The notes beneath the pieces were generated by a model. The model ran no database searches, had not been told where the DNA came from, and saw only the letters and a program-made list of their open reading frames with translations. From Paenibacillus sp. NAIST15-1 (GTDB lineage Bacteria; Bacillota; Bacilli; Paenibacillales; Paenibacillaceae): 64,000 bases of DNA. Location: the NCBI RefSeq assembly GCF_001894745.1, contig NZ_BBYF01000001.1, positions 62,001 through 126,000 of the forward strand, given 5' to 3'. Both the position numbers and the translations under genes were made by a program. This document shows, one piece after another, positions 7,335-42,174 of the stretch (position 1 is the first letter of the stretch; each line of letters begins with the position of its first letter).

Positions 7335-9323
7335 GTGCCGCGCCATCTAGTCGTCGGAAATGGCAAATTTCTCGTGAACCTTGACGAGCACGCCTATGTA
7401 AGGGATGTCTATTATCCGTATGTTGGTCAACTGAATCATACAGCAGGCTATCCCAGCCGTCTCGGGGTATGGGTGGAAGGTCAATTCAGCTGGCTAGGCG
7501 ATCCAGAGTGGAACATTCGCCTGGCTTATCAAGAAGATTCGCTTGTTACCGATGTAACTGCCGAACACGAAGGGCTTGGTATTGTACTTCATATGAATGA
7601 TGCCGTTCACCAGCGGGATTCGATCTACTTGAAGCGGATTGTCATCTCGAATGGTAATCCAAACCCACGTGAAGTACGCTTATTTTTCCACCAGGATCTG
7701 TCCATCAATGAAACGGAAGTTGGCGATACAGCAGGATATTACCCTGACAATGGCACGTTATTTCATTACAAAAAAGATCGCTACTTCATGTTCAATGGCT
7801 GCATCACCCAGCATCATGGTGAAATAGCAGGCATACACCAATACACGACAGGCATCAAGCGATTTCATCAGGCAGAGGGAACGTGGAAGGACGCAGAGGA
7901 TGGGCATCTTATGGGAAATCCTATCGCCCAAGGCTCTGTTGACAGCACGATCTGCTTGCGCACGATCGTCCCCGGCTCAGACAGCCGGGAGAGCTATTAT
8001 TGGCTCAGTGTTGGTAATCGACTTGATGAGGTGAAACAACTTGATCGATATGTACGAGACAGCGGCCCTGCACAACTGATCCAGCGTGTCAGCACCTACT
8101 GGAAGCGTTGGTCGAATCAGCGCCAGCTTGATTTCGCCGATCTGGAGCCCGAGCTGATACGCCTATTTAAGCTCAGCCTGCTTATCATTCGCACGCAGAC
8201 AGACGTGAACGGGGCAATCATTGCAGCAAATGATACGGACATTATGCAATTCAATCGGGATCATTACAGCTACATGTGGCCTCGGGATGGCGCACTTGTC
8301 GCGGAAGCGATGTCCGCTGCGGGATACCACGGGATGACAGCCCCCTTCTTCCGCTTCTGTGCTGATGCGCTGACTGCGGAAGGATACTTGCTGCACAAGT
8401 ATAATCCTGACGGCACCGTCGGTTCCAGCTGGCATCCCTATCTGCGCGACGGCAAATCGCAACTGCCGATCCAAGAGGACGAGACTGGACTTGTGCTGTG
8501 GGCACTGTGGAGATATTACGAACATCACCGGGACATTGAGCTCCCTCAATCACTCTATCAATCCTTAATCCGCAAGGCTGCCAAATTCATGATTCACTAC
8601 CGCGATCCCGAATTGAGGCTCCCCCTGCCCAGCTATGATCTATGGGAGGAGCGGTATGGAATATTCACTTTCACCGCTTCAGCTGTTTACAGCGGCTTAG
8701 TGGCTGCTTCCAACTTCGCATCTCTGTTCGGGGATGAGGAACGAGCTGACCGCTTCCGCAGCGCCGCAGAGGAAATCAAGGCAGCGATGCTGGCCCATCT
8801 ATGGAATGAAGAAGCCGGATGCTTCGTACGCGGACTGTACCGGAAGGAAGGGAAATGGGCTCAGGATTGTACGCCCGAGAGCAGCATTCTAGCCATTTAT
8901 ATGTTCGGTGTACTTCCTGCTGACGATGAGCGGGTACTGTCAACCGTTCGCGTATTGAAGAGCAAGCTGTCCATTCGCAGCCAGACTGGGGGGATTGCGC
9001 GCTACTGGCGAGATTACTACTTCCAGCGCAGCAATGATCCGAGCCTTGCTCCCGGCAATCCGTGGATCATATGTACCCTCTGGTTCGCAGCCCATGACAT
9101 CGATACCGCCTCCAACCTGAAGGAACTGCAAGCCGCACATGATACCTTGCGCTGGGTGGAAGCACACAGTCTGGCAAGCGGATTGCTTCCTGAGCAGTTG
9201 GATCCATTTGATGGTTCTCCACTGTCCGTTGCACCCTTAACTTGGTCACATGCAACATACATTCATACCGTTCTGAAGTATATTGAGAAATACAAGCAAT
9301 TGGAGGCAGCCTGTTTATCTTGA
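7335..9323 (+). CDS. GH15 family glucoamylase/glucodextranase-like
   Basis: A 662-residue protein with GTG start four bases after the previous stop. Residues 1-270 form the beta-sandwich N-terminal domain of prokaryotic GH15 enzymes; residues about 280-655 form the (alpha/alpha)6 barrel. The catalytic acid is expected in YDLWEER (Glu438/Glu439) and the catalytic base in LLPEQLDP (Glu620); a substrate-binding MWPRDGAL motif lies near 315. It hydrolyses glucose from alpha-glucan ends. There is no signal peptide, so it acts in the cytoplasm, probably on the glucan made by the GH57-GT4 fusion. A strong terminator ends the operon just downstream. Confidence 0.9.
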   Translation: MPRHLVVGNGKFLVNLDEHAYVRDVYYPYVGQLNHTAGYPSRLGVWVEGQFSWLGDPEWNIRLAYQEDSLVTDVTAEHEGLGIVLHMNDAVHQRDSIYLKRIVISNGNPNPREVRLFFHQDLSINETEVGDTAGYYPDNGTLFHYKKDRYFMFNGCITQHHGEIAGIHQYTTGIKRFHQAEGTWKDAEDGHLMGNPIAQGSVDSTICLRTIVPGSDSRESYYWLSVGNRLDEVKQLDRYVRDSGPAQLIQRVSTYWKRWSNQRQLDFADLEPELIRLFKLSLLIIRTQTDVNGAIIAANDTDIMQFNRDHYSYMWPRDGALVAEAMSAAGYHGMTAPFFRFCADALTAEGYLLHKYNPDGTVGSSWHPYLRDGKSQLPIQEDETGLVLWALWRYYEHHRDIELPQSLYQSLIRKAAKFMIHYRDPELRLPLPSYDLWEERYGIFTFTASAVYSGLVAASNFASLFGDEERADRFRSAAEEIKAAMLAHLWNEEAGCFVRGLYRKEGKWAQDCTPESSILAIYMFGVLPADDERVLSTVRVLKSKLSIRSQTGGIARYWRDYYFQRSNDPSLAPGNPWIICTLWFAAHDIDTASNLKELQAAHDTLRWVEAHSLASGLLPEQLDPFDGSPLSVAPLTWSHATYIHTVLKYIEKYKQLEAACLS

Positions 9324-31563: not shown

Positions 31564-32886
31564 ATGACGCGTATGTTGTTATCGAACCGATATCATTTCT
31601 CCTCGTTGCAGATGAGAGATGGCAGCTTAGTATTCGAACCACAGGAGCATTGTCTCCTTGAATGCCCTAAGCCGGTGATATACCACGATGCGGCCGGTCC
31701 GTTTGGCGTGTGTCAGGATGACGCACATTATGTTCATCTCGTGTATGTGAATAGGGATGACCAGCTCATTCATGTCTCAATCAATCCCTATTCACTTCAG
31801 ACGCACAAGCGCGAAATAGCAGGCCTGTTCAAGCACGTCCTGCATATTCAACTGACGAATTGCCACAATCAGCTTCATGCTGTGATTCAATACCGTTCCC
31901 GTATTGAGTATGTATCGTTATCTGGCATTCATTGGTCAACCGCAGACGTCCTATATGATGGCGAAGAGATCCATTCCCTCCGTCTATTCGCACATCAAGA
32001 TCATATCTGGCTGTGCACTGCATTAATAACGGCGGCGCCTCCCCATCAGCAACTACGTCTGCTCTTGCAATCGTTCCATACAGCATCCAGTCGATGGCTG
32101 CCTTCGACTTCATTGCCTGTTGTCCCACTGGAATCGAGGGAAGATTTCTTAGCCTATGATCTCTACTCTGTACAAGGGCGACTTGGAATGTTCCAGTTTC
32201 AGCGCATTGGGAACAAGCTCTTATTTGCAGCATATGAATGGAATAAGCAAAAGGAATGGACAATGACGGCTCATAGCCAAACAATCATCCCTCCCACTCT
32301 AGCAGCACAAGTCATATGTGCATACGATCATGGTTTGTACCGCTTAAGCTGGGTAACAGAAGACTTGCTGTTCCGCATTCATTACAGCATCCATCAAGAA
32401 GAATGGAGCGACTTATATACAACAGCAATTCCGTGTCCTGCAATCTCGACATGTATCTATGACAAGCAGCCAGGTCGCGATGGCCCTACCGTATGGATTG
32501 CTTCTGACCAGCAAACAACGCCCGACTTCACCGGATTTGCAGCACCCGCAGTCATGCAGGGATACCGAGCAACACGCGACCTCACTCACAGTATCGATTC
32601 AGCCGAAGCAGTCATCGCTTCTATCGTACACATGAGAGAATGTTGCAGAATAAGAAAGAGGGAACTTGTCCAATTGAAGCAAATCCAGAAGGAGCAGCAA
32701 GCCACAGCGGACCGACTGACAGAACGAATCGCTGCCTTGCAGGAGGAAGTTCAAGTGCGCCTTGCCATTCAGGAGCTTAGTGAGAAGAATACATTATTAA
32801 TGAAGAAAGAAGATAAGATAGTCGCTCGAAGCGGCATGAAAGAACAATTATCACGCATTGTATTCAAACTATCGAACCCCCGCTAA
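31564..32886 (+). CDS. Beta-rich protein with C-terminal coiled coil
   Basis: A 440-residue protein of unknown function. Residues 1-340 are beta-rich with repeated W/Y-ending strands (for example LHAVIQYRSRIEYVSLSG, HIWLCTALITA) as in a beta-propeller or beta-solenoid; residues 350-425 are charged helical coiled coil (RKRELVQLKQIQKEQQATAD onward). ATG 31564 follows AGGGGG; a longer frame from 31348 overlaps a methyltransferase gene and has no site. Its neighbour 32900 is also unknown. The same layout, beta-rich head then coiled coil, is found in the leftward protein at 36360-37655, so they may be partners in spore-surface assembly. Inference only. Confidence 0.75.
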   Translation: MTRMLLSNRYHFSSLQMRDGSLVFEPQEHCLLECPKPVIYHDAAGPFGVCQDDAHYVHLVYVNRDDQLIHVSINPYSLQTHKREIAGLFKHVLHIQLTNCHNQLHAVIQYRSRIEYVSLSGIHWSTADVLYDGEEIHSLRLFAHQDHIWLCTALITAAPPHQQLRLLLQSFHTASSRWLPSTSLPVVPLESREDFLAYDLYSVQGRLGMFQFQRIGNKLLFAAYEWNKQKEWTMTAHSQTIIPPTLAAQVICAYDHGLYRLSWVTEDLLFRIHYSIHQEEWSDLYTTAIPCPAISTCIYDKQPGRDGPTVWIASDQQTTPDFTGFAAPAVMQGYRATRDLTHSIDSAEAVIASIVHMRECCRIRKRELVQLKQIQKEQQATADRLTERIAALQEEVQVRLAIQELSEKNTLLMKKEDKIVARSGMKEQLSRIVFKLSNPR

Positions 32887-32899
32887 GGAGGAGCTTGTG

Positions 32900-33394
32900 A
32901 TGATGAATAATCCGGAAACTTCCATTGATGTGATCCTGCAAACTGCAGCCGATGTTGATCTGGAGACGCGCAGAATCTGCTTGATTACCCATATCAAATT
33001 TCGCAATATTTCAGCTCAGCCTGTGTCGTTGTCTCATATTTTGCTAACGCTATCTCCAAGCCGATTCTCAGTGGTGAGCGGGAAAATTGTACCCCCGCAG
33101 CATGCTCTGGTGTTTGGTCTCCATAAGAAAGGCAATCAGCAAACGGGCTGGAAATTCGATCGGGATGATTGGTTCTCGAACGGACGCAAAAACGGGGAGT
33201 ACCGGATTGAGCCTGTCCAGCCTCTTCTGCTCCCCCCACGAATCTGGTCAGACATAAGAGATATTCATATAGAATGCGATATCGATCACCTCATCACCCC
33301 GCTCCACATACACGCTTATGTATGTGCAGGAGGCAAGCAGTTCCCTGCCGCGAATCCAAGCAGTATCAGCTTCCGAGCTGCTGTTCATCCATAA
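32900..33394 (+). CDS. Hypothetical beta-sandwich-like protein
   Basis: A 164-residue protein with no family I recognise. It starts 14 bases after the coiled-coil protein gene, at ATG 32900 (or ATG 32903), after AAGGAGGAG, so the two are one operon. The pattern of alternating hydrophobic residues and motifs such as THIKFRNISAQPVSL and LTLSPSRFSVVSGKIVPP suggests an immunoglobulin-like beta sandwich of the kind found in secreted structural proteins, but no signal peptide is visible. It probably partners the preceding protein in the spore-surface locus. Confidence 0.65.
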   Translation: MMNNPETSIDVILQTAADVDLETRRICLITHIKFRNISAQPVSLSHILLTLSPSRFSVVSGKIVPPQHALVFGLHKKGNQQTGWKFDRDDWFSNGRKNGEYRIEPVQPLLLPPRIWSDIRDIHIECDIDHLITPLHIHAYVCAGGKQFPAANPSSISFRAAVHP

Positions 33395-33489
33395 TTGGTC
33401 TATTCTAAACTACATGAATGACGAGTATCTTGACATAAGTTTGTACGAATGAATCTAGTAATTCATCCAATCTTATGACGAGTCCCTTT

Positions 33490-33498
33490 CATACATTA
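33490..33498 (+). promoter_or_regulatory. Sporulation-type -10 element upstream of the 33561 gene
   Basis: CATACATTA matches both the sigma-E (CATACAnT) and sigma-K (CATAnnnTA) -10 forms, about 55 bases before the start. No convincing -35 (ATA or AC) is placed correctly, so this is a candidate only. Confidence 0.35.
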
Positions 33499-33560
33499 AC
33501 AGTGTAGAAAGAATTCTAGCAGGTTCTTTCGCTCATATGATGAAGGGGAGGTTTACTAAT

Positions 33561-34196
33561 ATGGTTCTTATTCCCATTCAACGGATCGTAAGCAGCACAA
33601 CTAACGTAGTTACTGCTCCTACAAGCGCAACTGCTGCGACTCTAGCACTCGCAGGTGCAGCACCGAATGTAGTGAACGTAGGGAATGCACCGCGTATTTG
33701 GCCTCAGATAACAAAATTCGACAATGATAACGGTCCATTTGCAGCAGTTCCGAATCCGGAATTCATCTGGTCACAACCCACATTCGTTCCGGGTGAAACG
33801 CACGGTTTTGCTACTGCTTCAGTAGCAATTCCACTTACTATTGGAGTTGCCGCTGACTTTGTCATTGCGATGGCTGTATTTGCCGACAATGCTGTGGTTG
33901 CAACGATTCAAGCTTTCAGCCCATTGCAAATCAGCTTGTTCCCAGTTCCTGGACTGAATGTACCATTAATTGGAGGCTCCTTGGATCCAACTACTGGCTT
34001 AACTACAGATGTTGCGAATCCATATAACTGGCAAAATGTGCGCTTCTATACGATTCCAGCATCACTTGGACTCATCTCACTTGCGCTTAGCGTACGGTTT
34101 GTATTCCAATTCCAAGTGACAAACTACTTCACAACTGGCGCTGTCAACACAGCTGGCTTATCTTTCATTGCTGACATTTATCAGTCCTTGCTGTAA
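33561..34196 (+). CDS. Probable spore-surface structural protein (hydrophobic, Ala/Val/Thr rich)
   Basis: A 211-residue protein with no known family. Composition is Ala, Val, Thr and Pro rich and nearly free of charge in long stretches (for example IVSSTTNVVTAPTSATAATL near 6-25). It has repeated beta-strand patterns and lacks a signal peptide, as is usual for spore coat and exosporium proteins made in the mother cell. ATG 33561 follows GGGGAGG. It is monocistronic between its own candidate sporulation promoter and a strong terminator. The island context makes it a candidate for the glycosylated surface protein, since it has many Thr/Ser residues; unproven. Confidence 0.6.
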   Translation: MVLIPIQRIVSSTTNVVTAPTSATAATLALAGAAPNVVNVGNAPRIWPQITKFDNDNGPFAAVPNPEFIWSQPTFVPGETHGFATASVAIPLTIGVAADFVIAMAVFADNAVVATIQAFSPLQISLFPVPGLNVPLIGGSLDPTTGLTTDVANPYNWQNVRFYTIPASLGLISLALSVRFVFQFQVTNYFTTGAVNTAGLSFIADIYQSLL

Positions 34197-34253
34197 TTGC
34201 TGCTGCTTGCCTCTAGCAAACCAGTTGAATAGCTGAAACGAATGAAACAACAT

Positions 34254-34290
34254 GAAGCATGATGCGATTCCTTAGAGCGCATCATGCTTC
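34254..34290. terminator. Bidirectional terminator between spore-protein gene and JAMM peptidase gene
   Basis: GAAGCATGATGCG and its complement form a 13-bp perfect stem around an 11-base loop that contains the peptidase gene's stop codon. Confidence 0.85.
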
Positions 34291-34727
34291 GTGCCTTGTG
34301 TTACGATTCTTATTGATTCTGGCTGTGCTTGACGCCCCTCAATCCGATAACTGCGTACGCGGGGACGAAGCCGTGACAAAGATACAATGATGTACGAGCA
34401 CGGATATACGGCATGCTCAATGTCGAAGATGGACGGGTATGGAACAGAGGCAGGATGAGAGTGAAATACGGCGATGAGCTGTTCTCCACTACGCTCCATT
34501 TGCTTCAGTGCATGATCCAGTTGCTCCATATCCATCGTAAATGATACTGGACTGCGGTCAATATTATCGATGATCCAGCAGCGGCTGGCAATCCCAGCGT
34601 TTCCTGACAGCAGTCCACAAGCTTCCAATGGCTTCTCTTGCAGACAATGCCCTACCATCTCTCGATATGTGTTCTCCGTTAGCTGTAGTCCCACAGCATT
34701 ATGATTTGTCGGTAGAGGATTGTTCAC
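34272..34727 (-). CDS. JAMM/MPN (M67) metallopeptidase
   Basis: A 151-residue single-domain JAB/MPN protein. The JAMM motif is complete: Glu35 in LEACGLLSG, then H89-S-H91-P, seven residues, Ser99 and Asp102 in SIFD. This is the Zn-dependent isopeptidase/peptidase fold. Bacterial JAMM proteins cleave C-terminal tails of sulfur carriers or other proteins. Here it is the last gene of the operon 37655-34272, after the amidase-like protein, overlapping it by 29 bases; GTG 34727 follows an AGGGAG site. No thiS/moaD-type gene is near, so a role in maturing the neighbouring acidic-tail protein is possible. Inference. Confidence 0.85.
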   Translation of the reverse strand: MNNPLPTNHNAVGLQLTENTYREMVGHCLQEKPLEACGLLSGNAGIASRCWIIDNIDRSPVSFTMDMEQLDHALKQMERSGEQLIAVFHSHPASVPYPSIFDIEHAVYPCSYIIVSLSRLRPRVRSYRIEGRQAQPESIRIVTQGTKHDAL

Positions 34728-36324
34728 GTTTTGCCCGCTCCCTCTGCATGAGCAATAGATCTTGAGCTGGATCTTTCGGTATGCGAGTATGGCTCGTTAA
34801 TGATTGTTGATTCAAATAACTAAGCAGTGAGCCGGAATGCTTGCTTGCTCCGTCTGCACGATTTACCGTATTGGCATGAAGCCATGTAAACGTCGAATAT
34901 GCGGGAGCTTGCCGCTTCCTGTCCTCCACCTGTTCCTGCTCTCCGACATTCAACTCCTCCGACTCAGTTTGCAGTTCACGGTTTGCCCCTTTCTCATGGA
35001 GAGGATTGGACATCTCGCCAGCCTTCTGATTGTGTCTCCATCTGCCACCTAGTGATATCCCTGACCCTTGCTCCTTACCCCCGATCGACCGGCTATCTGA
35101 TTGCTCTCCCTTATACAGTTCATCGGCTTCATCCACCGTAGGAGAGTCGTGACTTTTCTCTTTATCCTCCCATTCATATTCCGCGACCAACACGCTTCTG
35201 TTCACGAACATATCGTCATCATAACCGGTGTCATTAAGGCTCTCCTCAACGATATCTACAGCTTCTTCAACATCCTCTTCCTGCCAATCGTCTCCTGCGG
35301 GTTCCTCATTATCCTTATACTTTTGCCAATACACTTGCTCATTCAACTCATCCCCATGCTCAAGCTCATGCACACTTACTCGTTCTTCACTGTGCTCAAT
35401 GGTATCTGTCCCTGAACCCTCATAAGCGGAACGCACTTCTTGAGCAAGCCGCGACTCTTTATCCCCCCGCTGCTGCGAATGTTCGTGCGGTTCCAGTTCA
35501 TCCCTGCGTGAAGTTTCTACAGACTGATGCAAATTGGAGGCATCCATGAATGAAGTCTGCACATGCGGAGCCGTCGCCTCTTCCTCCCGCGATGCAACGT
35601 CTTCAGCGTGCCGCACCTCAGTAGTAACGGGACTTATTTCCTTCTTCCTATCCAATTCAGCTCCTTCGCCATTATCCATCGCTCGAAGCTTCTCAATGAC
35701 ATCTAGAATCGGAAGATACGAGAAGTAGGAGGCAGCTGCACGAGTGATTCCATTGCCGAGCTGCACGAGCTGTTCCGTAGACAATCGCAGGAATCCGCCG
35801 TATGTGAGCGCCACTGAAGTCCAAGATTGCCCTGTCAGCGATAACTGATAATTCGACCGATCCTTCCAATTCAAGCTCGCTCCACGGATAGGCAGCTCAC
35901 CGTGCTTCAACATATTCATAATAAGTAATTGGGCCAACTGTTTGCTCTGTTTGCGATGATGGAAATAATAATGAACACTTACCTCCATTGCATCATCCGG
36001 TACTGCTGATATCCATATCCCCTGCCGCTGATGATTCGATTCGCTTAACAGCTGCTTGCGCGTATCCTCTGAATCCACAATCGTGACTCTCAATCCGGCT
36101 TGGGACAGCGTGGACTGTATCGGGTACCACAACCGATCCACAATCTCCGTCATCTTGCTCTCTAGTACAACTCGGCACCCTTCAAGCGGGTTCATAATAT
36201 CGAGCATGCCTTGTCGTTTGTCCAGATGAAATGTGAACGAGTACTTGCCCAGCAGCTGGTATACATCAACTAACCGCGTCTCCGCAATCTTGCATAATGG
36301 CTTGCCATTCAATCGAATGTGCAT
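34699..36324 (-). CDS. Amidase_3-like pseudoenzyme with long acidic tail
   Basis: A 541-residue protein. Residues 1-45 resemble the stalk domain (LNGKPL, RLVDVYQLLG, then LDKRQGMLDI) seen before amidase_3 domains; residues about 45-200 follow the amidase_3 order: VRTIVDSEDT-like segment (VTIVDSEDTRKQLL), IWISAVPDDA, SKQLAQLLI, PIRGASL, and VALTYGGFLRLSTEQL ending in ITRAAASYF. The zinc ligands of amidase_3 (His in DPGHGG, Glu, His in SIHANA) are missing, so it is probably not an active lytic enzyme. Residues about 230-500 are a disordered acidic tail rich in Glu, Asp and Ser. ATG 36324 follows GGAGGGG by six bases. Likely a structural or peptidoglycan-binding protein. Confidence 0.65.
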   Translation of the reverse strand: MHIRLNGKPLCKIAETRLVDVYQLLGKYSFTFHLDKRQGMLDIMNPLEGCRVVLESKMTEIVDRLWYPIQSTLSQAGLRVTIVDSEDTRKQLLSESNHQRQGIWISAVPDDAMEVSVHYYFHHRKQSKQLAQLLIMNMLKHGELPIRGASLNWKDRSNYQLSLTGQSWTSVALTYGGFLRLSTEQLVQLGNGITRAAASYFSYLPILDVIEKLRAMDNGEGAELDRKKEISPVTTEVRHAEDVASREEEATAPHVQTSFMDASNLHQSVETSRRDELEPHEHSQQRGDKESRLAQEVRSAYEGSGTDTIEHSEERVSVHELEHGDELNEQVYWQKYKDNEEPAGDDWQEEDVEEAVDIVEESLNDTGYDDDMFVNRSVLVAEYEWEDKEKSHDSPTVDEADELYKGEQSDSRSIGGKEQGSGISLGGRWRHNQKAGEMSNPLHEKGANRELQTESEELNVGEQEQVEDRKRQAPAYSTFTWLHANTVNRADGASKHSGSLLSYLNQQSLTSHTRIPKDPAQDLLLMQRERAKREQSSTDKS

Positions 36325-36359
36325 TCCATGCCCCTCCCTCCTGTATGTACTGACTAACG

Positions 36360-37655
36360 TCATTGTATGAGGCGAATTCCGAATGGTGCCAAATTGGAAC
36401 CAACGGCATGCAACTGCTCCAATACGCGAACCTGCTCCCGCTCCATCTCTTCGATAAATGATTCCAATCGCTGCATCTCATGCTCCTCTTGCAGCAGACG
36501 TTCTTCAAGCAGCATCATCTCTTCTTGCCATGCAGCAATTCGCCCAGATGCAAATTCATGCAGTACGCCTAACTGCAGCTTGGCATAATGCAGCAATACA
36601 TCATCCTGTATAGAAGGACCCATTGTATTCATGGTCAAGAATGGATGGAACAAATCAATGAGTTCGATCGGTCGGAAGCATGGGTACCCGATGCCAAGAA
36701 GCGGGACAGGCACATGAGCCTGTTCAGAACAACGAACCCCTTGGATGATGCGAAGCCTCGATTCCCGGACGAACGGTACTTCCATAAAGGATCCCCAGTC
36801 CCTGCCTCCGTTGCTTGAATATGCACAGGCTAACCATGAGGAACCTGTAATCGAGAGAAACAGACCATGTTCTCCTGCAATAGTAAGTCGAGGAACGGAG
36901 GATTGATTCTGAAAAAACACTTTCAATGGGGTACAGGAATTCGTAACTTGTATGCCTCGCGCACAATATACCGTAGCTGTGACTCCGTTGTGTACGACCC
37001 ACGCGAGATATGGATCTCCTTCCCTCGCCGCGGATATTGTAATGCTCCAATTCTGCCCTGCTTGCGCAGAAGAGAAGACGTGTTGCCATTTTGCCTCCTC
37101 TGATTCCATATCGAGCTCGAGCAGCATCAGCTGCTGTCGATTCGTATCTCCATGTCGAATCAGGAACAGCCCATAAAGAGTCCCTGATTCACTTATATCG
37201 CAGCTTGCTTGTTCAATATGTACATTGACGCCATAATCTTCGTGAACATAGGAAAAAGCCCTCTCTCGCCACCTCCCCTGCTCAACCTGTCGAAGCACAT
37301 ACGTAAACTTCTTGTTCAGTATTGTAGTGAAGCCGAAATAGAGGGTTCTGCCAAGGTTAAAGAGATACGGATTCGATGAGCTGGGATGCCTGCTTATTCG
37401 CAATTCTTGCTTTTCATCTGCACGCGCATTCACGCTGCAACGTGCATAATAGATACCCGATTCATAGGCCATCAACATATGTAAATGGCCATGAAGCAGA
37501 ATGGCGCTGAACTGCTTCACGGTACTGCTGAACCTCCATAGGTGCTGCTTCACCTGTTCAACTCCGCGGTATAAGGAATGAAGCAGCGACCCATCGGATT
37601 GAAGTTCTACCCAATGCACGCCTTCTGAGGAATATAAGCAAACTTCTTGCCTCAC
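36360..37655 (-). CDS. Beta-rich protein with C-terminal coiled coil, analogue of 31564
   Basis: A 431-residue protein of unknown family. Residues 1-345 are beta-rich with repeated aromatic strands (LYFGFTTIL, TLYGLFLIRHG, YLAWVVHNGV, GLFLSITGSSW), suggesting a beta-propeller; residues about 365-415 are strongly helical and charged (LLEERLLQEEHEMQRLESF). Size and layout match the 31564 protein, though direct similarity is low by eye. GTG 37655 follows TTGGAGGGG by six bases. It heads the leftward operon with the amidase-like protein (36 bases apart) and the JAMM peptidase. Likely spore-surface assembly protein. Confidence 0.72.
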   Translation of the reverse strand: MRQEVCLYSSEGVHWVELQSDGSLLHSLYRGVEQVKQHLWRFSSTVKQFSAILLHGHLHMLMAYESGIYYARCSVNARADEKQELRISRHPSSSNPYLFNLGRTLYFGFTTILNKKFTYVLRQVEQGRWRERAFSYVHEDYGVNVHIEQASCDISESGTLYGLFLIRHGDTNRQQLMLLELDMESEEAKWQHVFSSAQAGQNWSITISAAREGDPYLAWVVHNGVTATVYCARGIQVTNSCTPLKVFFQNQSSVPRLTIAGEHGLFLSITGSSWLACAYSSNGGRDWGSFMEVPFVRESRLRIIQGVRCSEQAHVPVPLLGIGYPCFRPIELIDLFHPFLTMNTMGPSIQDDVLLHYAKLQLGVLHEFASGRIAAWQEEMMLLEERLLQEEHEMQRLESFIEEMEREQVRVLEQLHAVGSNLAPFGIRLIQ

Positions 37656-37677
37656 TGCGATCCCCTCCAAATTATTT

Positions 37678-37717
37678 TATGGGGGTGTCACCTTTTCTAG
37701 ATCGCCCCCATAGACTG
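37678..37717 (+). promoter_or_regulatory. Divergent spore-promoter region with an 8-bp inverted repeat
   Basis: TATGGGGG (37678-37685) and CCCCCATA (37705-37712) form an inverted repeat. On the plus strand AC at 37690-37691 and CATAGACTG at 37709-37717 are spaced about as in sigma-K promoters (AC, 16-17 bases, CATA), so this may drive the 37763 gene. The symmetric CATAAAATA on the minus strand is too close to the ribosome site of the 37655 gene to be its -10. Confidence 0.4.
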
Positions 37718-37762
37718 TATTGAATTTGAATTCAGATTCTATAAAGGAGGCAGGAAACATTC

Positions 37763-38425
37763 ATGGAGAGCAAGTTAGTTCAAGGGCAAACAACGCCCCC
37801 CGAATATTTGCCACTACCCTCTTTGGAATGTATAGAGGTTCCTAAAGTATTCGATTGGGTGTTGTTAACGACGCAAATTGTTGATGAAGCATGCATTGAT
37901 CCAGCTCTGTGCTTGCCATTGCCGGCTACATTCAGCGCTCAAGCAACGTTACTGACAGTAAGCTGCGGAGAGAAAGTCGGTTCTATTAGAGAAAATGTAG
38001 TGGTTACTGTTGGTGGCACACCAGTTACTCTACAACGTGTTGTCATTAAGAAAACAGGAACGTTTGAAGTCACGATCATTGATACTACAGTCGTCCCTAA
38101 CGTAGTACATTGCACATTTACAAAAACCTTTGTACGCTTCGAGAAAGTTCTGTTGTGTGCGCCTCCGGGAACTACAATTGATTGCGAAATCGTTCCGAAC
38201 ACATCAACGATTGAAGTTCTCGATATTGTCGACAACTCTTGTGTCAACGTGGACATCGTGATTTGCCAAAGCATTCAGGTAAAAGCGAATGTCAAGTTAG
38301 TTGTTGAAGCTGAGCTGTGCCAACCGCGTGCAGTGATTCCAGTCCCTGAAAACGCTTGTGTTGTCACATTCCCGAAACAATGTCCTACTATCTTCCCTGG
38401 TGCACCTTATCCGTTCCCATCATAA
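37763..38425 (+). CDS. Cys-containing spore coat/exosporium-type protein
   Basis: A 220-residue protein. The N-terminus has PLPSLECIEVPKVFDWVLLTTQ, a motif seen in a family of Bacillales spore coat morphogenetic proteins (BMQ_0737 type), and the rest is Thr/Val rich beta sandwich with spaced Cys residues (for example EACIDPALCLPLP, SCVNVDIVICQSI, ENACVV, KQCPTI). There is no signal peptide, in keeping with mother-cell synthesis. ATG 37763 follows AAAGGAGG. It probably forms disulfide- or isopeptide-linked surface layers. A sigma-K-like promoter lies upstream and a terminator downstream. The family name is a moderate guess. Confidence 0.65.
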   Translation: MESKLVQGQTTPPEYLPLPSLECIEVPKVFDWVLLTTQIVDEACIDPALCLPLPATFSAQATLLTVSCGEKVGSIRENVVVTVGGTPVTLQRVVIKKTGTFEVTIIDTTVVPNVVHCTFTKTFVRFEKVLLCAPPGTTIDCEIVPNTSTIEVLDIVDNSCVNVDIVICQSIQVKANVKLVVEAELCQPRAVIPVPENACVVTFPKQCPTIFPGAPYPFPS

Positions 38426-38444
38426 TCAAAATGCTGATCGGCTT

Positions 38445-38474
38445 GGGGTGGTGGCTAAAACCATCCCCTTTTTT
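38445..38474 (+). terminator. Terminator after the coat-like gene
   Basis: GGGGTGGT and ACCATCCCC pair with one bulge around a short loop, followed by TTTTTTATT. Confidence 0.8.
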
Positions 38475-38506
38475 ATTCTCTCGATGACAGGAACGAGGAG
38501 GGGCTA

Positions 38507-39490
38507 ATGCGGCTATACTATATCGCTTCCGGTTATCGGAGGCCAATTGATATCCTCGATAATGCGCTCATGAAGGCTCTGTACGGCCAGTGTCATGAGA
38601 GCAAAATATTTCTGTTGAATCGTGCACCAATTCAGCAGCTTCTTCCCGATATCCGCGAATTCAGGCCTGATTTCGTCTTGACCATTTGCGGTCCGCGCTC
38701 TTTTCTGCCTGTTGATCTGGTTCGCAGCATACGGAGGATGGGCATTCCGATTGGCGTATGGTTCGTTGATGATCCCTATGCCATCGACAATGCGCTGCAA
38801 GTAGCGGCCGAATACGATATCATCTTTACCATTGATTCTGGTTGTGTCCCTTACTATGAGCGCCACGGCTGCAAGCGAGTTCACCACTTGCCGCTCGGAA
38901 CAGACATTGATATCTTCCGTCCCTTCAACGCTCATCCTTCTTATGAGAGCGACGTCTGTTTCATCGGCACTGGGTACGATAACCGACTGCGTATGATGCA
39001 GCAAATGCTGAAGGAGCTTGATCCTGGCTTACATGTGAAGCTTGTCGGACATTTCTGGGACACCGTCAATTGGTCGGGTGGTTGTATCCCTCACCTGCGA
39101 ACCAAGTGGGTCAACTTCTCTGAGACGCCTCGTTATTACAACGGTGCCAAGTTTGTGCTGAATATTCACCGCAGTGAGGATGATACGTTAATTGATAAAA
39201 ATAAGACAGGTGCTCCCGGTCACACCATTAACAATCGCACCTTCGATATTGCGGCATGCCGGCGTGCACAGATCATTGATTATCGCCCAGATCTTCATAT
39301 GTTCTATGAACCAGGCGAGGAATTGCTATGCTTCGAGTCGCCGAAGGAATGTGCTGAGCTTATTCACACGTACCTCTACGAAGATGCCAAGCGGAGCTCC
39401 ATCGCCTCTCAAGGCTATGAACGAACTCGGGCAGAGCATACGTTTGCGAAGCGTCTAGAGCATTTGTTGAGTAGAGTGCGGGAGCTATAG
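38507..39490 (+). CDS. cgeB: CgeB-type glycosyltransferase
   Basis: A 327-residue CgeB family protein. The N-terminal domain has the RPDFVLTICGPRSFLP and PIGVWFVDDPYAID motifs; the C-terminal GT4-like domain has DVCFIGTGYDNRL, FVLNIHRSEDD and RTFDIAACRRAQIIDYRPDL. In B. subtilis CgeB acts in spore crust/surface maturation, so this gene is the clearest sign that the island serves the spore. ATG 38507 follows GAGGAGGGG. It may be a separate unit from the coat-like gene because a terminator intervenes. Confidence 0.85.
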   Translation: MRLYYIASGYRRPIDILDNALMKALYGQCHESKIFLLNRAPIQQLLPDIREFRPDFVLTICGPRSFLPVDLVRSIRRMGIPIGVWFVDDPYAIDNALQVAAEYDIIFTIDSGCVPYYERHGCKRVHHLPLGTDIDIFRPFNAHPSYESDVCFIGTGYDNRLRMMQQMLKELDPGLHVKLVGHFWDTVNWSGGCIPHLRTKWVNFSETPRYYNGAKFVLNIHRSEDDTLIDKNKTGAPGHTINNRTFDIAACRRAQIIDYRPDLHMFYEPGEELLCFESPKECAELIHTYLYEDAKRSSIASQGYERTRAEHTFAKRLEHLLSRVREL

Positions 39491-39651: not shown

Positions 39652-39999
39652 TTACCCTTTGACAAATGACTCCATAATCCCGGCCGCACCTGCAATAGCA
39701 AGCAGAAGGATAACCGGAAATGCATAGGTGGGGATGAGAAGGTAACAAGCCGTGATAAATGCGGCAGACCATACTCCCGTGCACCAATAACAGGTGAGCA
39801 GTTTGCGCATAAAGGCATGAAAACGGCCGCCTTTTTCTTCGATCACTGCAAATATAGCTCCATTCTCATCCGTATGATACCGCTCCTCTACAAAAGGTTT
39901 GCGAATGAAAGAAGTAATTTCATCGAATACGATGAGTCTAGTTAGGCGATAGCTCGCCAAAATAAGCAACGTCAATGACAACCAGGTTATGTTATGCAT
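39652..39999 (-). CDS. DUF1360 membrane protein
   Basis: A 115-residue protein of the DUF1360 family, which includes sporulation-related proteins of Bacillales. It has an N-terminal hydrophobic segment (TWLSLTLLILASYRLTRLI), the conserved CYWCTGVWSA motif near 70, and a C-terminal hydrophobic segment (TYAFPVILLLAIAGAAGIM), so it spans the membrane two or three times. ATG 39999 follows AAGGGGG. The function is unknown. The 160-base gap downstream holds no gene I can support. Confidence 0.82.
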   Translation of the reverse strand: MHNITWLSLTLLILASYRLTRLIVFDEITSFIRKPFVEERYHTDENGAIFAVIEEKGGRFHAFMRKLLTCYWCTGVWSAAFITACYLLIPTYAFPVILLLAIAGAAGIMESFVKG

Positions 40000-40667: not shown

Positions 40668-41738
40668 TTATCTACCGACGAAGCTGCCCACTACATGAAT
40701 CTTACCTGGATGCGCGGCCACCACTTCACCGATGCACACCGCTTCTACACCACGAGCTTGCATCTCATGAATCATCGCTTCCGCATCGCTAGCTGCAACA
40801 GACAAGAGCAGTCCACCTGATGTGACTGCATCACACAGCATCCACTGTGCAATCTCATCAAGTCGCTCGTCGAATACAACTTGATCCTTCACATGATTAT
40901 AGTTATTCTTCGTTCCGCCCGGTACAGCACCGTTCTCAGCCAGTTCACGAACGCGTGGCAAGAATGGTACGTTCTCCGCGTGAATAACAAGTCCTGCCTC
41001 GCTGCCTGCTGCCATCTCTGTACTATGGCCGAGCAAGCCGAATCCCGTAACATCGGTACATGCGTGGATCTCGTATCCGGCCATTACTTCAGCTGCCGTC
41101 TTATTGAGTGTCGTCATCGTCCGTGTTACCAGCTCAATTTCTTCTGGCTGAAGCAGCTCACGCTTCAAGGAAGTTGTCATGATGCCGACACCAATCGGCT
41201 TCGTCAACACCAGCTTGTCGCCAGGTTTAGCCCCCGCATTCGTCAGAACCTTGTCCGGATGAATGATGCCCGTTACGGCCATGCCGAACTTCGGTTCCGC
41301 GTCATCAATGGAATGACCGCCAACGAGTGTTGCTCCCGCTTCCTTCACTTTATCTCCCGCTCCGCGCAAAATGTCTGCCAAGATGGACTTGTCCAGCTTC
41401 GAAATCGGGAAGGCCACAATATTCAATACCGTGAGCGGCTTGCCTCCCATTGCGTAAATATCGCTAAGTGCATTCGCAGCGGCAACTTGACCGAACGAAT
41501 AAGCATCATCGACAATCGGCGTAAAGAAATCAACCGTTTGCACTAATGCCATGTCGTCATTCAGCCGATACACACCCGCATCATCGCTTGTATCCAATCC
41601 TACGAGTAAATCCGGATGCTTCTCTGTCTGCGGTAACATGCGCAATACTTGAGACAGATCGGACGGCCCTATTTTGCAGCCGCATCCTCCTTTGCTTGAC
41701 AAGGTTGTTAATCGAACCGTTGATTGTTGTTGATCCAT
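40668..41738 (-). CDS. selD: Selenide, water dikinase (selenophosphate synthase)
   Basis: A 356-residue SelD. It makes selenophosphate from selenide and ATP. The catalytic motif is SKGGCGCKIGPSDL: Cys19 and Lys22, so this is the Cys form with no in-frame UGA. Downstream VGLDTSDDAGVYRL and DGAFLP-like VGGHSIDDAEPKFGMAVTG bind metal and ATP. ATG 41738 follows GGGAGG; the frame extends to 42155 but without a site, and would pass the selD promoter. selD is monocistronic here. MnmH (19.5 kb) is its only visible user; no selA/selB. Confidence 0.96.
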   Translation of the reverse strand: MDQQQSTVRLTTLSSKGGCGCKIGPSDLSQVLRMLPQTEKHPDLLVGLDTSDDAGVYRLNDDMALVQTVDFFTPIVDDAYSFGQVAAANALSDIYAMGGKPLTVLNIVAFPISKLDKSILADILRGAGDKVKEAGATLVGGHSIDDAEPKFGMAVTGIIHPDKVLTNAGAKPGDKLVLTKPIGVGIMTTSLKRELLQPEEIELVTRTMTTLNKTAAEVMAGYEIHACTDVTGFGLLGHSTEMAAGSEAGLVIHAENVPFLPRVRELAENGAVPGGTKNNYNHVKDQVVFDERLDEIAQWMLCDAVTSGGLLLSVAASDAEAMIHEMQARGVEAVCIGEVVAAHPGKIHVVGSFVGR

Positions 41739-41958
41739 CACTTTATCCTCCCATCGCATAAGGCGAATTTCTTCCATTTCGTGCGTATCATACATAACTC
41801 TTTTATTGTAACATATCCGCACAATGCGATCGTCCATACGGACGCAAAAGCTGGTTCTGTAAATTCGTCCATTCGCTAGCAAAGCAAAAGCTGTCCATTT
41901 GGCCAATGATGAATGAGATGTGCAACCAAAATATATTAATTTGTTGGGAGGAGCGCTG

Positions 41959-42174
41959 ATATTACAGGCAGCAGCGATCATAAAAATAATCGGAGAACTC
42001 ATCCAAGACACTAGATGTGCATCGATTATAATAATTACGTCATTCTCGAAATTATCAGACATTAACAAAAGTACGATATCGAGAATAGTAAGCAGTGAAA
42101 TAAAACGACCCGAGTTCTCAACTTTAGAACCATTGGCAACAGCATTGGATATCACCTATAAAATATTGGCTTGA
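41959..42174 (+). pseudogene. Remnant of an XRE-type (RRNPP-like) regulator
   Basis: An 84-codon open frame (canonical start TTG... 41920) encodes IKIIGELIQDTRC then LSDINKSTISRIVSSEIKRPEFSTLEPLATALDI, which is the helix-turn-helix of XRE regulators and most like those with a C-terminal TPR domain. The recognition helix is intact but the N-terminal part has odd residues, and the frame stops at 42174 where a one-base change would continue as L-V-D-Y, the usual start of the TPR part. No TPR domain follows. A GGGAGG site at 41946-41951 precedes CTG 41956 and ATA 41959 but no ATG. I read this as a decayed regulator. Confidence 0.6.

Follow-up and report, generated by a model that had tools for sequence, protein, structure and literature searches.

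The window analysed here is a stretch of 64,000 nucleotides from Paenibacillus sp. NAIST15-1, and its open reading frames were present where the initial annotation of this DNA had placed them. On the minus strand, propF (36360..37655), psAmi (34699..36363), and the JAMM (Prok-JAB) peptidase gene (34272..34727) occupy 37655-34272, and all three overlap: propF and psAmi by 4 nt, psAmi and JAMM by 29 nt. These overlaps are consistent with one operon, as originally proposed. The plus strand carries propA (31564..32886), gB (32900..33394), coatC (33561..34196), the gene of a BMQ_0737-family morphogenetic spore coat protein (37763..38425; hereafter BMQ), and that of a CgeB-like glycosyltransferase (38507..39490). 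The gB frame, coding for a small protein, opens at 32858 with a likely start at 32900 or 32903, and the coatC frame opens at 33537. A small DUF1360 protein (39652..39999, minus strand; PF07098, 114.4 bits) belongs to the wider conserved set. A large glycosyltransferase cluster adjoins the module, with most of its gene labels assigned by eye.

Queries with propA, psAmi, propF, and BMQ matched an identical set of 17 out of 118 genomes, the source genome included. The order JAMM, psAmi, propF, BMQ, and CgeB-like gene was kept in all 16 fetched relatives, so the neighbourhood, which the initial annotation had proposed to check, is conserved, and the DUF1360 gene was present at the locus in the same 16/16. 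Judging from the kept gene order, the conservation of the module exceeds chance; the genomes compared are related, and the counts are therefore not independent. We dropped coatC as a module marker because it occurs in 24/118 genomes, that is, also outside the module.

Two proteins had been annotated as coat-like, and this label held for one of them. The 37763 protein belongs to the BMQ_0737 family (NCBIfam NF052457, 141.7 bits against a cut-off of 71), whereas the conserved coatC protein matched no Pfam or NCBIfam family, so that the label is not confirmed for it. The annotated cgeB after the module is indeed a glycosyltransferase gene, whose product carries Glyco_trans_1_2 (PF13524) and DUF3880 (PF12996); we call this protein CgeB-like. 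A strongly hydrophobic N-terminal segment was absent from the eight proteins and their homologues, where the highest 12-residue hydrophobic mean was 1.93, versus 3.17 for one secreted amidase.

Upstream of BMQ lies a sigma-K-type promoter, CACC-N16-CATAGACTG (37689..37717, plus strand). Using consensus letters that we presume to be those of sigma-K, and patterns composed after viewing the alignments, the strict form was found before BMQ in 17/17 loci, with a background of 0.0102 per 150 nt. The same two-part pattern was not found before propA (0/15), coatC (0/16), the propF operon (0/17), or the CgeB-like gene (0/17). Upstream of coatC there is a conserved -10 of sigma-K/sigma-E type, CATACATTA (33490..33498, plus strand), and CATANNNTA is present in 14/16 upstream regions of this gene. 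In other Bacillales, a looser sigma-K form precedes 16/22 BMQ-type genes (background 0.047 per 200 nt), and the strict one 4/22 BMQ-type, 0/23 JAMM, and 1/23 fusion genes (described below). The spacing before BMQ agrees with that given in PMC517825.

The JAMM protein matched Prok-JAB (PF14464) with 71.4 bits in the Pfam scan (cut-off 25), and the active-site E, HxH, S, and D were all kept in 17/17 module members and in 17/17 members from other Bacillales. It is a complete JAMM peptidase by sequence, as first described; homologues suggest that its true start may lie further in than 34727. In a profile search, high-scoring JAMMs were confined to the 17 module genomes of 118. Generic Prok-JAB genes elsewhere were not counted as module, since they reached at most 80 bits versus at least 208 for the module type with a profile built from the 17 module members themselves.

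The other members of the set look structural, and psAmi itself is a dead enzyme by sequence, which would fit a JAMM fold kept as a docking subunit in a module that works without proteolysis. However, the retention of every active-site residue in two diverged groups, 17/17 and 17/17, argues against it, and we consider this reading unlikely.

The peptidase could also act on ubiquitin-like or sulfur-carrier proteins, with an incidental location here. Its best NCBIfam model is a desampylase (NF041370), and its solved relatives include a PDB protein named JAMM1, which we take to be from Pyrococcus. The score, however, was 54.7 bits, under the 130-bit cut-off (62.6 bits for the first JAMM member of the other-Bacillales group). 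Moreover, a by-eye reading of the module-adjacent ORFs turned up neither an E1-like nor a ubiquitin-like gene, and JAMM is tightly linked to a gB-type gene across Bacilli. Such a role seems very unlikely.

JAB peptidases are found in phage tails too, and a tail remnant would explain why the JAMM protein matches tail families in PHROGs (E 1.4e-15). Nevertheless, 0/6 other scanned proteins matched any PHROG at E 0.001, and a gene order kept in 16/16 relatives does not suit a remnant; we give this origin next to no credence. Phage-tail and defence readings were dropped because the matches were limited to the JAMM protein.

The second minus-strand protein, psAmi (554 aa), had been described as an amidase_3-like protein without zinc ligands and with a 270-residue acidic tail. 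In the structure prediction, residues 12-232 (35668..36330, minus strand) are folded and well predicted except for 168-177, and disorder extends over residues 234-489. The acidic tail, at residues 236-488 (34900..35658, minus strand), is slightly shorter than first described: 252 residues, 27% D/E, and a net charge of -40. Across the 17 members its length ranges from 90 to 252 residues, and the part behind it has an invariant S490 and F492.

Pfam Amidase_3 (PF01520) matched 0/17 psAmi members, and single-sequence Pfam and NCBIfam scans did not detect the amidase relation. With the psAmi model, Foldseek returned PelC as best match (E 1.1e-3), followed by unrelated proteins with weak E-values, and no amidase was among its top 50. 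A profile-profile comparison with 33 domains drawn from Amidase_3 matches did reveal the likeness (93%, E 2.7e-7, over 134-135 of 168 columns; reversed-profile controls 0.3-0.6%). With the scans and Foldseek silent, it is this comparison that carries the amidase claim. At the positions aligned to the second zinc His and the catalytic Glu, neither residue was found in 17/17 members, and the D-x-G-H motif was absent from all of them; the scored residues are those we take to be catalytic in Amidase_3. Since the zinc ligands and the catalytic Glu are missing, psAmi is by sequence not an amidase, and its N-terminal domain appears to be a degenerate Amidase_3 relative without catalytic residues. The initial annotation was thus right about the likeness and the ligand loss, and the structure prediction it had suggested gave a folded domain and a disordered tail, but not an amidase fold among the best 50 matches.

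For propF, the start is a GTG preceded by a Shine-Dalgarno-like GGAGGGG, and the longest ORF opens at 37670. Its model (17 sequences, pLDDT 80) presents a beta-propeller head followed by a single helix of 72 residues (352-423), in line with the beta-rich head and C-terminal coiled coil originally described. The best PDB matches in Foldseek comprised glycoside hydrolases (5mum, E 1.5e-9, TM about 0.5), a neuraminidase of putative function, and propeller lectins that bind fucose (PLL/PHL). The predicted fold is therefore of the sialidase/lectin beta-propeller type. The proposed pairing with propA was supported in part: propA (440 aa, beta-rich) has a C-terminal coiled coil from sequence and is possibly a beta-propeller, and the two profiles matched weakly (probability 50%, E 1.7e-4).

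Beyond the close relatives, the surroundings of JAMM in other Bacillales frequently include a BMQ_0737-type gene, one for a giant coiled-coil protein, and one for a fusion protein; the neighbourhood clusters behind this result are single-linkage and approximate, and overlapping frames cost the ORF calls some JAMM genes. The fusion protein joins pseudo-amidase-like and gB (32858-type) domains. The psAmi match within it does not extend past roughly the first 91 columns, and the gB domain corresponds to its C-terminal part (hhalign 99.7%, E 5.9e-26). DUF1360-like genes are found near JAMM in other Bacilli too. Named JAMM relatives include Paenibacillus, Brevibacillus, Peribacillus, and Bacillus methanolicus, among others. 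In B. methanolicus, JAMM shares one locus with the fusion, BMQ-type, and coiled-coil genes.

Module-type JAMM was present in 41/398 Bacilli genomes at a cut of 138 bits, chosen once the scores had been seen to drop to 119 below it, and 40/41 also matched the fusion profile, which was built from JAMM neighbours. JAMM and fusion gene were at most 12 kb apart in 36 of the 41 genomes. SpoIVA occurred in 41/41 of them versus 20/39 sampled others.

These loci bear on the original guess that JAMM cuts the acidic tail, releasing or maturing psAmi. The 29-nt overlap of the two genes, the predicted disorder of the tail, and the invariant S490 and F492 behind it would all suit such a cut. However, 16 of 18 fusion proteins aligned from JAMM loci presented no long acidic stretch by eye (two from Brevibacillus have an acidic linker), four JAMM loci yielded no pseudo-amidase within the stretch that was fetched, and the tail length varies widely within the 17 members. 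Since most aligned JAMM-bearing relatives are without the tail, its clipping becomes less likely, and we regard it as improbable.

Taken together, the genes probably form a spore outer-layer assembly module. This reading, close to the surface-layer module of the initial annotation, is well supported by comparative evidence: the BMQ_0737 family, the sigma-K-type promoter, the N-termini, SpoIVA in 41/41 genomes, and the conservation of the set. The first four of these also speak against a vegetative cell-surface glycan module, which the adjoining glycosyltransferase cluster could suggest and to which we assign a very low probability.

Our whole explanation, with a probability of roughly 0.6, is that a late mother-cell set builds the outermost spore layer through a scaffold, stalked propellers, and trimming by JAMM. 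The genes would be expressed late in the mother cell, and the BMQ_0737-type protein would form or stabilise the outermost layer. The pseudo-amidase and gB domains –one protein in many relatives, two here– may act as a non-catalytic scaffold, with the acidic tail of psAmi as a flexible linker. PropA and propF would be beta-propellers on stalks, binding or displaying the sugars that the glycosyltransferases next door produce. JAMM, in turn, may trim a common module protein (BMQ type, gB/pseudo-amidase, or coiled-coil) in the mother cell during assembly. Of all this, the analysis established the gene content and order, the co-occurrence, the intact and lost active sites, the predicted propeller of propF, and the promoter-like sites; from these we infer the spore location, the scaffold, the sugar binding, and the proteolysis with its substrate. 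More tentatively, and at somewhat less than even odds, JAMM could be a dedicated protease that matures the outermost spore layer inside the mother cell across many Bacillales by cutting a structural partner (BMQ type, gB/pseudo-amidase, or giant coiled coil), with a dead cell-wall amidase recruited as scaffold.

How the outermost spore layer is assembled has been worked out in detail mainly for Bacillus subtilis and the Bacillus cereus group. We know of no JAMM enzyme dedicated to cell-surface construction; if true, spore-layer maturation by JAMM would be a new role for the family. The JAMM-linked set, in about 41/398 sampled Bacilli, would offer a direct way into proteolysis at the spore surface, and the module lets the role of a pseudo-amidase there be asked.

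Literature searches, covering listings and abstract openings, returned no paper on the gene set, and data on the expression, localisation, or enzyme activity of its genes did not come to light. The initial statement that no described system has this set therefore stands for the set, but not for the BMQ_0737 protein, which was studied in Bacillus megaterium: PMC4656864 places BMQ_0737-GFP in the outermost spore layers. The 37763 protein is in the same NCBIfam family as BMQ_0737 of B. megaterium QM B1551, with 220 residues versus about 370-390 in most listed relatives from other Bacillales.

Among known enzymes, Prok-JAB/JAMM peptidases (JAMM1 in the PDB, haloarchaeal desampylase) have the domain and active site in common with the JAMM of the window, which differs from the desampylase in falling under the family cut-off and in neighbouring a spore-coat gene. 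Amidase_3 N-acetylmuramoyl-L-alanine amidases resemble psAmi in the profile-profile match, whereas psAmi has lost the catalytic residues, lacks a secretion-like N-terminus, and carries the acidic tail. The SafA/SpoVID coat scaffolds of B. subtilis use LysM domains and provide a works-like analogy only, in that a wall-related domain is joined to a long assembly region. In CgeB and other spore-surface glycosylation genes of B. subtilis, a CgeB-like glycosyltransferase likewise adjoins coat genes, but to our knowledge that set includes no JAMM, pseudo-amidase, or stalked propeller.

We consider the spore-surface reading of this module well supported by comparison between genomes, and we give a probability of roughly 60% to the overall explanation that the gene set would assemble the outermost spore layer. 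The initial annotation had described the set correctly: its ORF positions and complete JAMM peptidase were confirmed.

In the 6.77-Mb host genome, a glycosyltransferase/methyltransferase gene cluster (labels mostly by eye) lies left of propA. On the plus strand, propA (31564-32886), gB (about 32900-33394), and coatC (33561-34196) precede three minus-strand genes that overlap by 4 and 29 nt: JAMM (Prok-JAB peptidase, 34727-34272), psAmi (pseudo-amidase with acidic tail, 36363-34699), and propF (propeller plus helix, 37655-36360). BMQ (37763-38425, plus), a CgeB-like glycosyltransferase gene (38507-39490, plus), and a DUF1360 gene (39652-39999, minus) follow. In the gap between BMQ and the CgeB-like gene (38426-38506), the aligned loci conserve a G+C-rich stem and then a T run, resembling a terminator. 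Gene 40118, presumably bacilliredoxin-like, lies 3' of the module in 16/16 loci (L042-L057), and SelD in 9/16 fetched stretches. The window frame that we take to be SelD-like (40668-42155) has a much longer N-terminus than its homologues, most matching from about residue 140, and its true start is probably further inside.

The gene neighbourhood was conserved when checked: all 16 fetched relatives keep the order JAMM, psAmi, propF, BMQ, CgeB-like, DUF1360, and 40118, with the BMQ gene of L047 split across two frames (8258-8906). propA was not detected within two of these stretches (L044 and L048), yet it was found in both genomes, in one mostly beyond the fetched stretch and in the other on a separate contig. 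Queried as window proteins (psAmi, propF, BMQ) or as an alignment (propA), each of the four matched the same 17 of 118 genomes (own included), within 2 of 43 genera. The JAMM profile, made from those same 17 module genomes, scored at least 208 bits in exactly these and at most 80 bits elsewhere. The psAmi profile was positive in 5 of 296 genomes of an order-level draw, again in the same 2 genera, and the nearest module-bearing relative by psAmi (G017) presented 58% identity. Among the named species with the close type of JAMM are P. alvei, P. profundus, P. apiarius, P. dendritiformis, P. aquistagni, P. terrigena, P. selenitireducens, P. taiwanensis, and P. popilliae.

Regarding expression, a promoter of sigma-K type, written in the letters of the sigma-K consensus after viewing the alignment of the loci (MACM-N15-17-CATANNNTR), lies 5' of BMQ in 17/17 loci, with 0.0102 expected per 150 nt. 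Its spacing is in line with published work (PMC517825), which puts the optimum, counted between longer elements, at 15 plus or minus 1. The strict pattern was absent 5' of coatC (0/16), propA (0/15), propF (0/17), and the CgeB-like gene (0/17). Upstream of coatC, CATANNNTA is conserved in 14/16 loci; a short inverted repeat (TGAAT ... ATTCA, 33450-33465), in a block conserved in most aligned loci, could be a candidate regulator site. In other Bacillales, the strict pattern preceded JAMM in 0/23, fusion genes in 1/23, and BMQ-type genes in only 4/22 cases, and this last count slightly lowered our confidence in the overall explanation. A looser pattern was found upstream of 16/22 BMQ-type genes (background 0.047 per 200 nt), 1/23 JAMM, and 5/23 fusion genes, and a tighter one, picked after viewing the looser matches, upstream of 11/22 BMQ-type genes (background 0.0043). 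By a simple measure, the N-termini of the eight proteins and their homologues all fell short of the hydrophobic segment in one secreted amidase, as expected for proteins reaching the forespore from the mother-cell cytoplasm.

At the protein level, BMQ scores above the threshold of NF052457, which represents a family of morphogenetic spore coat proteins. JAMM scores over the Prok-JAB cut-off and keeps all active-site residues in 17/17 module members; its closest solved structures are 2kks (uncharacterised, E 1.6e-27) and JAMM1 (5lda, E 7.6e-17). In the propF model (17 sequences, pLDDT 80), a beta-propeller leads into one helix (352-423). Foldseek matches of this model were glycoside hydrolases, a putative neuraminidase, and fucose-binding lectins, and since TM-scores were near 0.5, the modelled resemblance is one of fold rather than close kinship. 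Profile comparison found weak similarity between propA and propF. For coatC and gB, the Pfam scan gave no family match and the NCBIfam scan no supported one. A different contig of the window's genome holds a coatC-like stretch within a 941-aa open frame (G000:C21:2125-2754) and a BMQ-like stretch within a 1145-aa open frame (G000:C21:77029-77619). The coatC family can expand, because G070, a genome without the module, has ten coatC-like matches.

On sequence, not structure, we take psAmi as a degenerate Amidase_3 relative. Its N-terminal profile matched Amidase_3 domains (probability 93%, E 2.7e-7, 134 columns) in a set of 33 domains from Amidase_3 matches in this and related genomes, one of which (L112) is wrong-frame noise; the controls stayed at 0.3-0.6% (reversed profiles) and 0.1-0.2% (four other module profiles). 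Pfam Amidase_3 matched 0/17 psAmi members, and the top 50 Foldseek matches of the predicted model included no amidase. At the aligned positions that we assume to be catalytic, the 17 members have V, L, Q, or G for the second zinc His and T, A, N, or V for the Glu, and they lack the D-x-G-H motif. The psAmi tail spans 90-252 residues across the family, with a net charge of -13 to -50; in the predicted model it is disordered and precedes a short conserved C-terminal part.

A JAMM pattern search in other Bacillales retrieved diverged relatives (best 80 of 191 confirmed). We clustered, by single linkage, the proteins of 28 neighbourhoods (L131-L160, with L132 and L154 set aside as module loci), including two from bins labelled Actinomycetes and Chloroflexi. 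The clusters comprised JAMM (24 loci), a gB-bearing protein with a median of 410 residues (23), coiled-coil proteins with giant ones among them (21; reaching at least 1,542 residues, with two read over their whole length), a BMQ_0737-type protein (18), and a DUF1360-like protein (11). The 410-residue fusion protein ends in gB (profile match 99.7%, E 5.9e-26). Its N-terminal region was compared separately with psAmi, whose first part it matched (96.7%, E 4.7e-10, about 91 columns), and with Amidase_3, which it also matched (86.6%, E 4.4e-6, 118 columns); reversed controls gave 0.1-0.2%. psAmi and gB, separate in the window, form one predicted protein elsewhere, at least in part, so they are predicted to work together. 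Beyond the P. alvei group, the common core pairs JAMM with a gB-type protein; BMQ-type and giant coiled-coil proteins, the pseudo-amidase-like domain, and DUF1360 often accompany them. In four loci (L225-L228), gB is a protein of its own, a giant coiled coil is directly 5' of JAMM, and no pseudo-amidase was found within the fetched stretch. In the window, the stalked propellers may substitute for this giant coiled coil.

These loci also bear on the earlier proposal that JAMM cleaves the acidic tail of psAmi, which is disfavoured. Inspection by eye of 18 aligned fusion proteins showed no long acidic stretch in 16; the other two, from Brevibacillus, carry an acidic linker. JAMM is present in loci where the tail is missing, so tail cleavage is unlikely as its general role; of the candidate targets that remain, BMQ-type, gB/pseudo-amidase, or coiled-coil proteins fit best.

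In an independent draw of 398 Bacilli genomes (own included), JAMM of this wider type (at least 138 bits, a cut picked after viewing the gap from 138.7 to 119.2 bits) was found in 41, and the fusion profile, built from JAMM neighbours and with at least one training genome (G405) inside the draw, matched 62. Both occurred in 40 genomes, and G666 had JAMM without a fusion match (Fisher p 8e-38, uncorrected for genome relatedness). They shared a contig in 36 of the 40, 1.3-12.0 kb apart, and lay on different contigs in 4 draft genomes. The match included the N-terminal part in 37 genomes, 2 without JAMM (G354, G619), and was to gB alone in 25, 5 with JAMM (window's genome included). SpoIVA was found in 41/41 JAMM genomes vs. 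20/39 others, sampled without this JAMM type or fusion match (p 6e-8); one of these 20, G329, has fragments only.

The initial annotation knew of no described system with this set. This appears to hold for the set as a whole, for which we found no paper in the searchable literature, but not for every component: its BMQ_0737 member is an already studied spore protein (PMC4656864).
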